DNA from: Mammaliicoccus sp. Dog046 | Lineage (GTDB): Bacteria > Bacillota > Bacilli > Staphylococcales > Staphylococcaceae | DNA length: 64,000 bases | Direction of reading: 5' to 3' | NCBI RefSeq assembly: GCF_034039665.1 | Contig: NZ_CP120131.1 | Coordinates: 1,226,446-1,290,445, forward strand | Shown: one piece after another, positions 44,973 through 50,659 of the stretch | Position numbering within the stretch: the first letter of the stretch is position 1 | How the letters are laid out: every line of letters starts with the position of its first letter | Notes under the pieces: model-generated | Told to the model about the DNA's origin: nothing | The model's input: only the letters and a program-made list of their open reading frames with translations | Database searches by the model: none | Made by a program: the position numbers and the translations under genes

Positions 44973-44983
44973 GAGGTATAATG

Positions 44984-46270
44984 ATGGACGTTAAAATGCC
45001 AAAGCTTGGAGAAAGTGTGCATGAAGGAACGATTGAACAATGGCTTGTTAAACCAGGTGACACAATCGAAGAATATGATGCATTATGTGAAGTAATTACA
45101 GATAAGGTAACAGCGGAAGTACCATCTACATTCAGCGGCGTCATCAAAGAACTTGTTGTAGAAGCTGGGGAAACAGTAGACGTTGGTACAATTATTTGTC
45201 GTATGGATGTAGAAGGCGATTCAGGAGATGTAGCAACGACTTCATCAGAAGAGCCTGAAGAAAATACGGCTGAAGAACCTACGCAAGCAAAAGAATCAAA
45301 TAAAACTGCAGAGTCAAACGATAAAACAGAAAAACAAAATAATGGTCAATTCTCACCAGTTGTATTTAAATTAGCGAGTGAAAATGGCATTAATTTAGAT
45401 GGTGTTAAAGGTACAGGCCATTTAGGACGTGTCACTAAGAAAGATATTTTAAATGCGATAGAACAAGATGAAAATGTAGAACAAACGCAATCACAACCTA
45501 AAGAAAGTGTTGTAAAAGAGGCGCCTGTTGAACAAAGCAATCAAATTGAAGCAGATACATCTACTGAACATATTGGTGAATCTATACCTGTTAATGGTGT
45601 GAGAAGAGCAATCGCAAATAAAATGGTACAAAGTGTGAATGAAATCCCTCATGCATGGATGATGGTTGAAGTAGATGCTACTGATCTTGTTAAAACAAGA
45701 CAACATCACAAATCATCATTTAAACAAAATGAAGGATTTAATTTAACATTCTTTGCATTCTTTGTTAAAGCAGTTGCAGAAGGCTTGAAAAAATATCCAA
45801 TGCTTAATAGCACTTGGTCAAACGATGAAATTAAAATTCATAAAGATATAAATGTTTCTATTGCAGTTGCTAGTGAAGATAAATTGTATGTACCAGTAAT
45901 CAAAAATGCAGACGATAAATCTATTAAAGGTATTGCAAAAGAAATTAATGATCTAGCTACAAGAGGTAGAAAACATAAATTAACTTCACAAGATATGCAA
46001 GGTGGAACATTTACAGTTAATAATACTGGTTCATTCGGTTCTGTATCATCAATGGGAATTATTAATCACCCACAAGCAGCTATACTACAAGTTGAATCAA
46101 TTGTTAAAAGGCCAGTCGTTGTAAATGACATGATCGGCATTCGAGATATGGTTAATTTATCACTGTCTATTGACCACAGAATTTTAGATGGCTTAATGGC
46201 TGGTGAATTTCTGAAATATGTGAAAGAAAGATTACAAAGTATGACAATTGAGAATACATCAATCTATTAA
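44984..46270 (+). CDS. bkdB: lipoamide acyltransferase E2 of the branched-chain keto acid complex
   Basis: A 428-residue E2. An N-terminal lipoyl domain (lysine in ITDKVTAEVP, near residue 43) is followed by an acidic linker, a small E1/E3-binding domain (SPVVFKLASENGINL, GTGHLGRVTKKDI) and a catalytic core ending in the DHRILDG active site. Two ATG codons are adjacent at 44981 and 44984; the second has better spacing from AGGAGGT. It makes branched acyl-CoA, also the primer for branched-chain fatty acids. Lipoylation depends on LipM-type enzymes. Confidence 0.95.
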   Translation: MDVKMPKLGESVHEGTIEQWLVKPGDTIEEYDALCEVITDKVTAEVPSTFSGVIKELVVEAGETVDVGTIICRMDVEGDSGDVATTSSEEPEENTAEEPTQAKESNKTAESNDKTEKQNNGQFSPVVFKLASENGINLDGVKGTGHLGRVTKKDILNAIEQDENVEQTQSQPKESVVKEAPVEQSNQIEADTSTEHIGESIPVNGVRRAIANKMVQSVNEIPHAWMMVEVDATDLVKTRQHHKSSFKQNEGFNLTFFAFFVKAVAEGLKKYPMLNSTWSNDEIKIHKDINVSIAVASEDKLYVPVIKNADDKSIKGIAKEINDLATRGRKHKLTSQDMQGGTFTVNNTGSFGSVSSMGIINHPQAAILQVESIVKRPVVVNDMIGIRDMVNLSLSIDHRILDGLMAGEFLKYVKERLQSMTIENTSIY

Positions 46271-46344: not shown

Positions 46345-46782
46345 ATGGAAATGGATTTTAATTTATATATGAATGATGTTGTCAATTCAGCAAGAAACGA
46401 GATAGAAGCGGCAGGATATAAGCAATTAACAACTAAAGAAGATGTTGAGTCTACTTTTAATAAACCTGGTACAACATTTGTTATGGTTAATTCAGTATGT
46501 GGTTGTGCAGGTGGCATCGCAAGACCTGCAGCACAACATGCATTACACTATGATAAATTACCAGACCAACTCGTAACTGTATTTGCAGGACAAGATAAAG
46601 AAGCTACAGCAACAGCAAGAGATTACTTCGAAGGATATCCGCCTTCAAGTCCATCATTTGCTTTTCTTAAAGATGGTAAAATTGTAAAAATGATAGAAAG
46701 ACACGAAATAGAAGGACATGATCCAATGAGTGTCATCACAAATATTCAAGCGTTATTTGAAGAGCATTGTAAAGAAATATAA
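46345..46782 (+). CDS. brxB: bacilliredoxin, BrxA/BrxB family (YqiW type)
   Basis: A 145-residue thioredoxin-fold protein with the C52-G-C54 active site in [15 protein letters not shown]. Family members remove bacillithiol from oxidised proteins. It follows bkdB, the yqiW position of B. subtilis, which favours the BrxB assignment over the paralogue BrxA (YphP). Confidence 0.9.
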
Positions 46783-46800: not shown

Positions 46801-47766
46801 ATGCAAATAAAACCGTATAGAATAGGTTATAGAACATTAAAGACTGCTTTAGGGATGACATTAGCTGTCATCCTTTCTCAGTTAATAGGTTTAGAAAATT
46901 ATGCGTCAAGTGCTATTTTAGTCGTCCTTTGTATTAAAGATACGAGAGTGAAATCATTTGAAGCGGCAATTTATCGTTTTATCGCATGTTTTATTGCGAT
47001 TATGTGTGCATCGTTATTCTTTACTTACTTAGGCAGCACACCGCTTGTATTAGGGTTAATGGTGCTCTTATTCATACCAATTACGGTAATGATTGGTGTA
47101 CAAGAAGGTATCGTAACAAGTTGTGTAATCATTTTGCATTTATTCTTAGCAGAATCTATTGATTTACATTTAATAATCAACGAAATATTACTACTTATAA
47201 TTGGTATTGGTATCGCGTTAATTATGAACATGTTTATGCCAAGTTTAGATCATAAACTCAACCAATATAAACGAAAAATTGAAGATGATTTTATTTTGAT
47301 TACGTATGTATTTAGTAAAGGGTTAATGGACCCGAATAAACAATTAAACATTCCTTCATTTGAGAAAGTATCCCAAAATATTAAACAAGCTAAATCTTTA
47401 GCGTTTAGGGAAGTAAAAAATCATTTTGTAAGAAATGAAAATTCGTACTATCATTATTTTGATATGAGAGAAGAACAACTCACATTATTAAAACGAATGA
47501 AGAAATTAATTGAATCTATGCAACATAGTCAACACGCACATTTTTTATGTAGTCAATTGCTGTTTGACGTTTCACAAAATGTACAAAGTAAAGATTATAC
47601 ACTTATGAGATTGCATAGTTTATATGAAATAAAAATCAAACTACAGTCTATTGAATTACCAAAAACACAAGAAGAACTCGAAAGTATTGCAGCTTTATTC
47701 CAATTACTTAATGAAGTTGAAGAGTATTTACGTATTAAATCTCAATTTGGTAGTTTAAAAAAATAA
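46801..47766 (+). CDS. aromatic acid exporter family membrane protein (YqjA type)
   Basis: A 321-residue protein with about five N-terminal membrane helices (residues 12-150) and a soluble helical C-terminal half. This fits the ArAE/FUSC family (B. subtilis YqjA). The opening YRIGYRTLKTALGM is typical. Substrate unknown. It lies 18 bases after brxB and may be cotranscribed. Confidence 0.75.
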   Translation: MQIKPYRIGYRTLKTALGMTLAVILSQLIGLENYASSAILVVLCIKDTRVKSFEAAIYRFIACFIAIMCASLFFTYLGSTPLVLGLMVLLFIPITVMIGVQEGIVTSCVIILHLFLAESIDLHLIINEILLLIIGIGIALIMNMFMPSLDHKLNQYKRKIEDDFILITYVFSKGLMDPNKQLNIPSFEKVSQNIKQAKSLAFREVKNHFVRNENSYYHYFDMREEQLTLLKRMKKLIESMQHSQHAHFLCSQLLFDVSQNVQSKDYTLMRLHSLYEIKIKLQSIELPKTQEELESIAALFQLLNEVEEYLRIKSQFGSLKK

Positions 47767-47808
47767 CAAAAAGCCATCTGTGGACTTCACAGATGGTTTT
47801 TGTGTTAT
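47765..47808. terminator. bidirectional terminator after yqjA
   Basis: CCATCTGTG pairs with CACAGATGG around GACTT, extended by AACAAAAA and TTTTTGTGTT on the flanks with one bulged base. It separates yqjA from the convergent micropeptide gene. Confidence 0.85.
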
Positions 47809-47829: not shown

Positions 47830-47934
47830 TTAATTTGTTAATAAAAATGGTAGTACACCTGATAGAATAAGTGACGCAACAATTGCTACAAGCATCACTA
47901 TGATTACTATTTTGCGGAGTTTCTTATTACCCAT
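47830..47934 (-). CDS. Prli42-like stressosome-associated membrane micropeptide
   Basis: A 34-residue peptide beginning MGNKKLRKIVIIVMLV and ending FLLTN: a basic N-terminus then one membrane helix. This matches the Prli42 pattern (N-K-K-L-R-K-I, ML, S-x-x-L-S-G). GTGAGGT lies five bases before the ATG. Prli42 in Listeria sits beside a PepT-like peptidase gene, and the same neighbour (48030-49145) is found here, divergently. In Listeria it anchors the stressosome to the membrane. Confidence 0.72.
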   Translation of the reverse strand: MGNKKLRKIVIIVMLVAIVASLILSGVLPFLLTN

Positions 47935-48029
47935 AATAAACCTCACTTTGAACAATAATTTTGTATATATTTATTAACTATTATACACTAGATAGTGAGA
48001 TATTTAAATAATTGAAATGAGGGAATAGC

Positions 48030-49145
48030 ATGATAAACAAGCAAAGATTGTTAGATACTTTTATAGAATTAGTTAAGGTCGATTCTGAATCTAAAAACGA
48101 AAGACAAATCGCTGACTTATTAATTCAAAAGTTCAGAGATCTAGGTTTAGAAGTTAAAGAGGATGATTCACAAAAAGATACAGGATATGGTGCAGGGAAC
48201 CTCATTTGTAAACTGAATGCTAAAGATAATCAAAAAACAGCAATCTATTTTACGAGCCATATGGATACAGTCAATCCAGGTAACGGTATTGAACCTGAGC
48301 TACGTGAAGATGGTTATATTTATTCTAAAGGAGAAACAATATTAGGTTCTGATGATAAAGCTGGATTAGCAGCTATATTAGAAGCAATCGAAGTGATGAA
48401 AGAACAAGATGTTCAACATGGGGATATTGAATTTGTAATTACTGTCGGCGAAGAAATGGGATTAGTAGGTGCTAAAGCATTAAATCCTGAAGACATTACT
48501 GCTAAATTTGGTTATGCGATTGATGCACCTGGTAAAGTAGGTACAACTGTTATTGGTGCGCCAACACAAGCGAAAATAGAAACAATTATCACTGGTAAAA
48601 CAGCTCATGCTGGATTAGAACCTGAGAAAGGTGTTTCTGCAATTAATATAGCTGCTAAAGCAATTAGTCATATGAATTTAGGCAGAATAGATGAAGAAAC
48701 TACCGCAAATATTGGGCGATTTGAAGGTGGAACTGCAACGAATATTGTAAGTGATCATGTTTATATTTTAAGTGAGGCAAGATCAATTGATGAAGAAAAA
48801 ATGCAACAACAAGTAGCACATATGAAAGAAGCATTTGAAAAAACAGCTGAAGAGTTTGGTTGTACAGCTGATGTTAATGTGAAAATTATGTATCCAAATA
48901 TCAATTTAACTGAACAAGATGAAGTTGTACAACTAGCAGTTAATGCAACGAAGAAGATTGGTCGTCAATCTGAATTAGTTGTAACAGGTGGAGGATCAGA
49001 CGGCAACGTCATTAATGGTTTCGGTATTCCGACTGTTATTTTAGGCGTAGGATATGAGTTTATTCATACCAAAAATGAACGTATGCCTGTTGAAGAATTG
49101 CAAAAAATCACAGAACAAATCGTCGCTATTTCAGAACTTGCGTAA
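48030..49145 (+). CDS. M20 family tripeptidase-like metallopeptidase (YqjE type)
   Basis: A 371-residue dizinc peptidase. Metal-site motifs are TSHMDTVNPG near residue 77, GSDDKAGLAA near 110 and GEEMGLVGA near 143. A dimerisation domain with GKTAHAGLEPEKG is inserted. It resembles peptidase T; whether it acts on tripeptides is not shown by sequence. GAGGGAA precedes the ATG. Confidence 0.88.
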   Translation: MINKQRLLDTFIELVKVDSESKNERQIADLLIQKFRDLGLEVKEDDSQKDTGYGAGNLICKLNAKDNQKTAIYFTSHMDTVNPGNGIEPELREDGYIYSKGETILGSDDKAGLAAILEAIEVMKEQDVQHGDIEFVITVGEEMGLVGAKALNPEDITAKFGYAIDAPGKVGTTVIGAPTQAKIETIITGKTAHAGLEPEKGVSAINIAAKAISHMNLGRIDEETTANIGRFEGGTATNIVSDHVYILSEARSIDEEKMQQQVAHMKEAFEKTAEEFGCTADVNVKIMYPNINLTEQDEVVQLAVNATKKIGRQSELVVTGGGSDGNVINGFGIPTVILGVGYEFIHTKNERMPVEELQKITEQIVAISELA

Positions 49146-49255: not shown

Positions 49256-50659
49256 ATGACACAAGAAATAGGCGTAGTTGGTTTAGCTGTAATGGGTAAA
49301 AACTTAGCTTGGAATATTGAATCACGTGGTTACTCAGTATCAGTATATAACCGTTCAAAAGAGAAAGTCGATCAAATGGTCGAAGAATCAAAAGGTAAAA
49401 ATATACATCCAAACTATTCAATTGAAGAATTTGTAGATTCATTAGAAAAACCTAGAAAAATTTTATTAATGGTTAAAGCTGGAGAAGCAACTGATAAAAC
49501 AATCGACAGTTTATTACCATTATTAGATAAAGGCGACATCTTAATCGATGGCGGAAATACAAATTATTTAGATACAATACGTAGAAATCAATACTTAGAT
49601 GAAAGTGGTATTAACTTTATTGGTACTGGTGTTTCTGGCGGTGAAGAAGGTGCATTAACTGGACCATCAATTATGCCAGGTGGACAACAAGAAGCTTATG
49701 AATTAGTAGCACCAATTCTTGAAAGTATTTCTGCTAAAGCGAGCGATGGATCACCATGTGTAACTTATGTCGGTCCAGATGGCGCAGGACATTACGTTAA
49801 AATGGTACATAATGGTATCGAATATGCAGATATGCAATTAATTGCTGAAAGTTATGACTTAATGAAACGTGTACTTCACATGGATCATAAAGAAATAGCA
49901 GATACATTTAAATCATGGAATACAGGTGAGCTTGAAAGTTACCTTATTGAAATTACAGGTGAAATTTTCAATAAATTAGACGAAGATGGCGAACCATTAG
50001 TAGAAAAAATCATGGACAAAGCTGGACAAAAAGGTACTGGTAAATGGACATCAATTAATGCTTTAGAATTAGGTGTACCATTAACAATTATTACTGAGTC
50101 AGTATTTGCTAGATTTATTTCATCATTTAAAGATGAAAGAGTTAAAGCAAGTCAATCATTCAATCCTGAAGTAACTGAATTTACTGGCGATAAAGAAGCA
50201 TTCTTAGAACAAATTAGACAAGCATTATACATGAGTAAGATTTGTAGTTATGCTCAAGGATTTGCTCAAATGAAAACTGCTAGTGAAACAAATGGTTGGG
50301 ACTTGAAATTAGGCGAATTAGCAATGATTTGGAGAGAAGGTTGTATCATTCGTGCACAATTCTTACAAAAAATCAAAGAAGCTTATGATAACGACAAAGC
50401 GTTAACGAACTTATTATTAGACCCATACTTTAATGATATCGTTGCTAAATATCAAGGTTCATTAAGAGAAGTATCTGCAACGGCAATTAAAGCAGGTATT
50501 GCAACTCCAGGTTTCTCTTCTGCTATTAACTATTTCGATAGCTACCGTTCAGAAGATTTACCAGCAAACTTAATTCAAGCACAACGTGATTATTTCGGAG
50601 CTCATACTTATGAACGTAAAGATACAGATGGCGTTTATCACACAGAGTGGACAAAATAA
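49256..50659 (+). CDS. gndA: 6-phosphogluconate dehydrogenase (NADP-dependent, decarboxylating)
   Basis: A 467-residue pentose-phosphate enzyme making ribulose 5-phosphate. The NADP loop is [14 protein letters not shown] with NRS after it, the catalytic segment is [19 protein letters not shown], the lysine lies in [12 protein letters not shown], and DEKGTGKW-like KGTGKW is near 260. The start ATG 49256 follows GTGAGG; an in-frame ATG 24 bases upstream includes that site. zwf lies nearby in convergent orientation. Confidence 0.96.

Follow-up and report, generated by a model that had tools for sequence, protein, structure and literature searches.

Prli42 is kept in Bacilli families with and without a stressosome and appears to share a family with DUF4044

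The membrane microprotein Prli42 is kept both in families of Bacilli that have a stressosome and in many that do not. Judged by profile similarity, distribution and gene neighbourhood, Prli42 and DUF4044 (PF13253) appear to belong to a single family whose gene changed its place step by step. We put the probability at about three in four that the two constitute a single Bacilli-specific family, single-copy, mostly separately transcribed and oriented with the N terminus inside, whose ancestral function would lie apart from the stressosome and SigB. Taken by itself, the prli42 gene described here adds one more ordinary member to a family already known; what is new is the broad decoupling of Prli42 from the stressosome and the link to DUF4044.

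RESULTS

The prli42 gene of Mammaliicoccus sp. Dog046 is under purifying selection

The window is the whole 64,000-nucleotide stretch of the Mammaliicoccus sp. Dog046 genome that we analysed. A preliminary description of it had proposed a 34-codon gene with a ribosome site at 47830 to 47934, beside a PepT-like gene, encoding a basic N terminus and one membrane helix matching Prli42. We confirmed the gene, its ribosome site and its neighbour. The features of the region are as follows.

44981 to 46270, plus strand: bkdB-like 2-oxoacid dehydrogenase E2, closing the bkd operon (Pfam)
46345 to 46782, plus strand: BrxA/BrxB-type bacilliredoxin, Disulph_isomer family (Pfam PF06491)
46801 to 47766, plus strand: exporter-like membrane protein of the ArAE_1/FUSC type, convergent with prli42 (Pfam ArAE_1, ArAE_1_C)
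47769 to 47801, both strands: strong intrinsic terminator-like hairpin in the interval between prli42 and the exporter gene (terminator scan)
47830 to 47934, minus strand: prli42, MGNKKLRKIVIIVMLVAIVASLILSGVLPFLLTN, 34 aa plus stop
47940 to 47946, minus strand: Shine-Dalgarno sequence GTGAGGT of prli42, 5 nt ahead of the ATG (sequence)
47980 to 48008, minus strand: promoter-like TTTAAA-17-TATAAT of prli42, housekeeping type (consensus scan)
48030 to 49145, plus strand: M20-family PepT-like peptidase, adjoining prli42 and divergent from it (Pfam M20, M20_dimer)
49256 to 50659, plus strand: gnd, 6-phosphogluconate dehydrogenase, a conserved part of the prli42 neighbourhood (Pfam 6PGD)

The frame opens at the ATG at 47934 and closes with the stop at 47832 to 47830. 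Missing conservation in relatives had been named beforehand as grounds for giving up the gene. We found the frame in all 8 Mammaliicoccus genomes, including the window's own, and pooled pairwise counts in the genus gave pN 0.10 and pS 0.67, a ratio of 0.15. The GAGG of the ribosome site is kept in the 8 genomes of the genus, as is the promoter-like site, with an invariant TATAAT and a nearly invariant -35 region; the count of sites of this type in the window scan was not above that in shuffles. The terminator scan found 2 sites, versus 0.1 expected. We concluded that the window gene is an orthologue of prli42 and that purifying selection acts on it. Rfam gave no match near threshold in the region, and we therefore rejected an RNA or antisense element at this place. 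Our literature search found no proteomic or ribosome-profiling evidence of staphylococcal Prli42; one paper (PMC8195425) only cites the founding Prli42 study.

The window peptide matched NF033880, the NCBIfam equivalog model of Prli42, over 31 of 31 positions, scoring 47.4 bits where 27.5 are required (E = 1.2e-12). It has a basic N-terminal tail (K4, K5, R7 and K8), one predicted transmembrane helix and a C terminus without charged residues. Because of this charge distribution, the positive-inside rule suggests that the N terminus lies inside. The maximum 19-residue Kyte-Doolittle value was 3.07, and AlphaFold predicted a single helix over residues 4 to 33 (mean pLDDT, 89). In a chance control, prli42 was the only one of 166 ATG-started ORF tails of 28 to 40 aa in the window with such a pattern of hydropathy and charge. 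The alignment that the preliminary description had proposed gave about 60% identity to Listeria-type sequences. The peptide of Listeria monocytogenes is similar in size (31 versus 34 aa) and likewise has one helix preceded by a tail that is basic at K4, K5 and position 8. The RsbR-binding positions of Listeria are thus present as K4 and K5, but arginine 8 is a lysine in Mammaliicoccus.

The PepT-like gene is a syntenic anchor of prli42 across Bacilli

A PepT-like gene lay within 6 kb of prli42 in 51 of the 59 loci of our class sample, drawn from 24 families, and brxB and bkd lay on the far side of prli42 in many of the 59. The gnd gene was present in loci of the sampled families f1, f2, f54, f47 and f49. 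When named genomes were located through PepT, we found Prli42 upstream of PepT on the opposite strand in 63 of 80, with no exception among the matches. The PepT-like gene is thus a syntenic anchor of prli42 across Bacilli. The Listeria-type loci have the same neighbourhood, in the order bkdB, prli42, PepT-like and gnd, with bkd on one side, the PepT-like gene and gnd on the other, and both sides on the opposite strand. In these loci bkdB itself adjoins prli42, whereas in Mammaliicoccus the bacilliredoxin and exporter genes lie between them.

Both flanking genes were opposite to prli42 in 51 of 65 loci (23 families). Therefore, prli42 would mostly be transcribed on its own, and the genes around it give no pointer to its function. 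We rejected an operon partner for the same reason: the PepT-like gene is a positional neighbour and not an operonic one.

At the PepT position of the Listeria-type loci (L148 to L151 and L153), the gene had about 30% identity to the window PepT-like gene, versus 50 to 64% elsewhere in Bacilli. The place is retained, and the gene is replaced or strongly diverged.

The host has a SigB pathway without RsbR, RsbS or RsbT

The preliminary description had stated that SigB control persists in staphylococci generally without the RsbRST core, and it had called for a genome search for the three proteins. The host bears this out. Its SigB locus has the order mazF-like, rsbU, rsbV, rsbW and sigB, and we found no RsbR N-domain, RsbS or RsbT. 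With B. subtilis RsbT and RsbS sequences as queries, supported by 98% identity matches in the survey below, there was no match in the host genome at an E value of ≤1e-10. The RsbR N-domain (Rsbr_N), to which Prli42 binds in Listeria, was also absent from the host genome, while the B. subtilis control and a Listeria-type genome (G419) were positive. A STAS search of the host genome returned only the RsbV beside sigB over the cut-off (69.5 bits). We rejected RsbR among the STAS matches, the other one being a 483-aa SulP-like transporter below the cut-off. A stressosome tether calls for a genome that also encodes RsbR, RsbS and RsbT, and the Mammaliicoccus genome, unlike that of Listeria, offers Prli42 none of them to bind.

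In the host RsbU (L274:1194-2198; about 731.2 to 732.2 kb of G000), the RsbU_N domain is still clearly recognisable (72.8 bits), though the genome is without RsbT. RsbU_N is the RsbT-binding domain in B. subtilis.

Most sampled Prli42-positive genomes have neither RsbS nor RsbT

We surveyed an even draw of 299 Bacilli genomes and counted true RsbS and RsbT by bit score, with thresholds set in the present analysis; weak RsbT-like matches exist in some families without true RsbS. The taxonomic names attached to the family labels of this sample (f4, f5, f54 and so on) are mostly inferred. Prli42 was found in 142 of the 299 genomes, in 119 of them over the NF033880 cut-off, and there was one copy per genome. 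Both true RsbS and RsbT were present in 42 of the 142, at least one of them was present in 49, and neither was present in 93. Nineteen of the 29 Prli42-bearing families had no RsbS or RsbT in any genome. Even on the most liberal reading, 66 of the 142 genomes had no RsbT- or RsbS-like match at 1e-10. These include all 26 genomes of a large-genome Paenibacillaceae-like family, 21 Staphylococcaceae and 5 genomes of the Anoxybacillus tepidamans family. Some of the highest NF033880 scores came from stressosome-free families (Anoxybacillaceae and the large-genome Paenibacillaceae-like family). The converse, RsbS and RsbT without detectable Prli42, occurred in 10 genomes. As a positive control, RsbT was recovered at 70 to 72% identity in the seven Listeria-type genomes tested. 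Within the Listeria-type family, a genome of a sister genus (G329) has Prli42 with an RsbT-like match of only 36%, and we did not find Rsbr_N in it.

These counts bear on the partner of the peptide, which the preliminary description had called an open question for staphylococci. The staphylococcal framing was too narrow, since most sampled Prli42-positive genomes are without the core.

In families f5 and f38, which are without RsbS and RsbT, SigB fell under the TIGR02941 cut-off and Prli42 is equally conserved; for the Paenibacillaceae-like family, the missing SigB rests on that one cut-off. In a published survey, Listeria and the relatives of B. subtilis had the full rsbRST set, and Geobacillus, Paenibacillus and Staphylococcus did not (PMC9847131). 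We do not press the absence of SigB in f5 and f38, because the same survey reports sigB orthologues in Paenibacillus and Geobacillus.

RsbR binding alone does not explain the conserved basic tail

Binding of Prli42 to RsbR in Listeria goes through K4, K5 and R8 (PMC6614362). We compared these positions in 65 aligned members, 36 from families without RsbS/RsbT and 29 from families with them. Position 8 was basic in 36/36 members without versus 28/29 with, position 4 in 19/36 versus 19/29, and position 5 in 25/36 versus 22/29. The tail carried on average 3.0 basic residues without RsbS/RsbT and 3.2 with, and acidic residues were essentially absent. As the basic residue 8 occurs in both groups, RsbR binding alone cannot explain it, nor does RsbR explain a tail charge that is similar in both. 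Positive-inside anchoring or another partner explains the charge pattern at least as well.

The strongest constraints in Prli42 are its hydrophobic character and the basic residue 8. Further specific conserved positions are a tyrosine at 12, serine or threonine at 21 and 22, and a glycine at 26. Helical periodicity of conservation was weak (P = 0.035 for Prli42 and 0.61 for DUF4044), and we dropped a conserved helix face as proof of a packing interface because the Prli42 value was not matched in DUF4044.

Prli42 and DUF4044 appear to be one family

Searched against Pfam, the window peptide had DUF4044 as its best family, just missing the gathering score (20.3 versus 21.8 bits; E = 3.8e-4), and DUF4044 was the only Pfam match of a Listeria-type Prli42 peptide. 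Conversely, Prli42 was the only NCBIfam match of three DUF4044 proteins, with E values down to 3.6e-5; those tested fell short of the Prli42 cut-off (best, 23.5 versus 27.5 bits). Using hhalign, we aligned the two models over 30 ungapped columns with a probability of 96% and a score of 39.1. After 200 column shuffles within the tail and helix blocks, the maximum was 23.7, and none reached the observed score.

The case for DUF4044 leans on synteny and distribution; profile similarity alone is weak evidence for hydrophobic peptides of 31 residues. Among 148 Lactobacillales genomes, Prli42 passed its cut-off only in the Listeria-type family, whereas 98 genomes had DUF4044, 97 from other families and one from the Listeria-type family itself. 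The match in this last genome was borderline (22.2 bits), and the genome carries Prli42 at another place. Outside the Listeria-type family, 8 of the 8 genomes with weak, sub-cut-off Prli42 matches had the match inside the DUF4044 gene. We found no SigB-type factor over the cut-off in Lactobacillales with DUF4044, only distant sigma matches. In family f47, DUF4044 is flanked by recN and gnd, and two of these loci also have a PepT-like gene; in f49 it adjoins gnd. Elsewhere in Lactobacillales it is beside recN and mraZ, and in streptococcus-like genomes it is beside obg.

DUF4044 thus resembles Prli42 in its basic N-terminal tail, its single copy, one helix that aligns without gaps over 30 columns and a partly shared recN, gnd and PepT-like neighbourhood. 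It differs in a longer N-terminal tail with an F-x-K-(I/V)-T motif, in a tryptophan that replaces the tyrosine at the membrane edge, and in its move next to recN/mraZ or obg in most Lactobacillales. A combined Prli42/DUF4044 model (A2) found a member in 164 of the 299 Bacilli. Outside Bacilli, about 170 genomes of the phylum gave a single weak match (21.6 bits), which we treated as chance. Our literature search, in which one paper mentioned DUF4044, found no link drawn between DUF4044 and Prli42.

DISCUSSION

Work in Listeria supports a stressosome role of Prli42 through pull-down, RsbR mutants and an oxidative-stress phenotype (PMC6614362). A later imaging study found no stress-sensing phenotype of a prli42 deletion and a modest effect on RsbR1 diffusion (PMC9840623), and fractionation showed RsbR1 to be mainly cytosolic (PMC7705745). 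The stressosome link in Listeria is probably a secondary role of Prli42. This reading fits the two later studies without denying the binding and oxidative-stress effects of the first. Since the host and many other carrier genomes are without the stress complex, the usual job of Prli42 would be other than the stressosome. For the same reason, and because DUF4044 occurs in Lactobacillales without a SigB-type factor, it is probably mistaken to picture Prli42 as seeking a substitute for its stressosome partner. We consider it likely that Prli42 and DUF4044 together are a core Bacilli membrane microprotein with an ancestral function yet to be found, and that the stressosome role is a late side activity in Listeria. 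Such a family would span streptococci, enterococci, lactobacilli, staphylococci, bacilli and Paenibacillus-like bacteria.

Several other explanations have to be weighed against this one. Staphylococcal Prli42 might still serve the SigB pathway by binding elsewhere upstream in it, for instance to the N-terminal domain of RsbU. SigB is present in the host, its RsbU retains RsbU_N (72.8 bits) with RsbT gone, and Listeria Prli42 is a membrane peptide that does bind RsbR (PMC6614362). However, Prli42 is just as conserved in f5 and f38, and its relative DUF4044 occurs where there are only distant sigma matches. As neither shows SigB over the cut-off, one explanation for both must be SigB-independent, and we regard the SigB reading as quite unlikely. 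Convergence of short basic-plus-hydrophobic peptides, with only Prli42 proper a single family, strikes us as equally improbable. Short hydrophobic sequences do align easily, Pfam and NCBIfam keep the two families apart, and the DUF4044 proteins tested stay below the Prli42 cut-off. Against this, no block-preserving shuffle came near the observed score, the cross-matches are reciprocal, the distributions are complementary, and the gnd/pepT/recN neighbourhood is common to both.

An unlikely reading, though one that sits well with hydrophobicity and residue 8 as the main constraints and with the weak periodicity, is that Prli42 has no protein partner and acts on structure or lipid, as a basic-tailed helix altering the membrane or a mild toxin-like peptide. 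The specific residues conserved at 12, 21 to 22 and 26 argue against it, as do one copy per genome and a chromosomal position and orientation that are conserved. Type I toxins, in contrast, usually occur in several copies and are mobile, and no Rfam family came near threshold in the region. That the window ORF is no gene, or a decaying remnant of a lost stressosome, has only its shortness in its favour and is highly improbable. Conservation already contradicts it and rules out a spurious ORF: the frame in every genome of the genus, a pN/pS of 0.15, a conserved promoter and ribosome site, and the NF033880 match.

For the preferred reading, a Prli42/DUF4044 family with its own ancestral function, the anatomy of the peptide allows a tentative mechanism of docking and helix packing, which we hold to be possible but doubtful. 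The conserved juxtamembrane basic residue and the neighbouring lysines would dock, at the inner leaflet, a partner with an acidic surface. The helix, like those of other one-helix accessory subunits, would pack on an integral membrane partner widespread in Bacilli. Listeria would use this basic tail additionally to bind the acidic patch of RsbR and so recruit part of the stressosome to the membrane. One-helix accessory microproteins of membrane complexes, of the AcrZ, KdpF and MgtS type (PMC11539335), resemble Prli42 in size, in its predicted topology and in the proposed binding of a small helix to a large membrane protein.

The NCBI model names the family "stressosome-associated" even in organisms that have no stressosome. 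Provided that the decoupling holds, this name misdirects staphylococcal work, and a side role may lie behind the published Listeria phenotypes, which conflict in part. With Prli42 and DUF4044 merged, one could look for the ancestral partner in easily handled organisms such as laboratory lactococci or Geobacillus. Because these organisms are stressosome-free, a phenotype or a pulled-down partner there must be independent of RsbRST.

Additional observations

Three Staphylococcaceae genomes (G133, G297 and G261, of genera g3 and g4, Macrococcus-like by inference) gave no Prli42 match; the gene is lost or diverged beyond detection. Families f17 (26 genomes) and f23 (25 genomes), Exiguobacterium-like and Brevibacillus-like by inference, are without Prli42, most with SigB, and f23 has RsbT without typical RsbS. 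In one Bacilli genome (G147:C1:407368-407601), a TAG stop breaks RsbS, with RsbT and SigB both intact; this may be a real loss or an assembly error.

In six streptococcus-like loci (L163, L165, L180, L181, L185 and L187), DUF4044 lies directly before obg on the same strand and might there be co-transcribed with a conserved partner.
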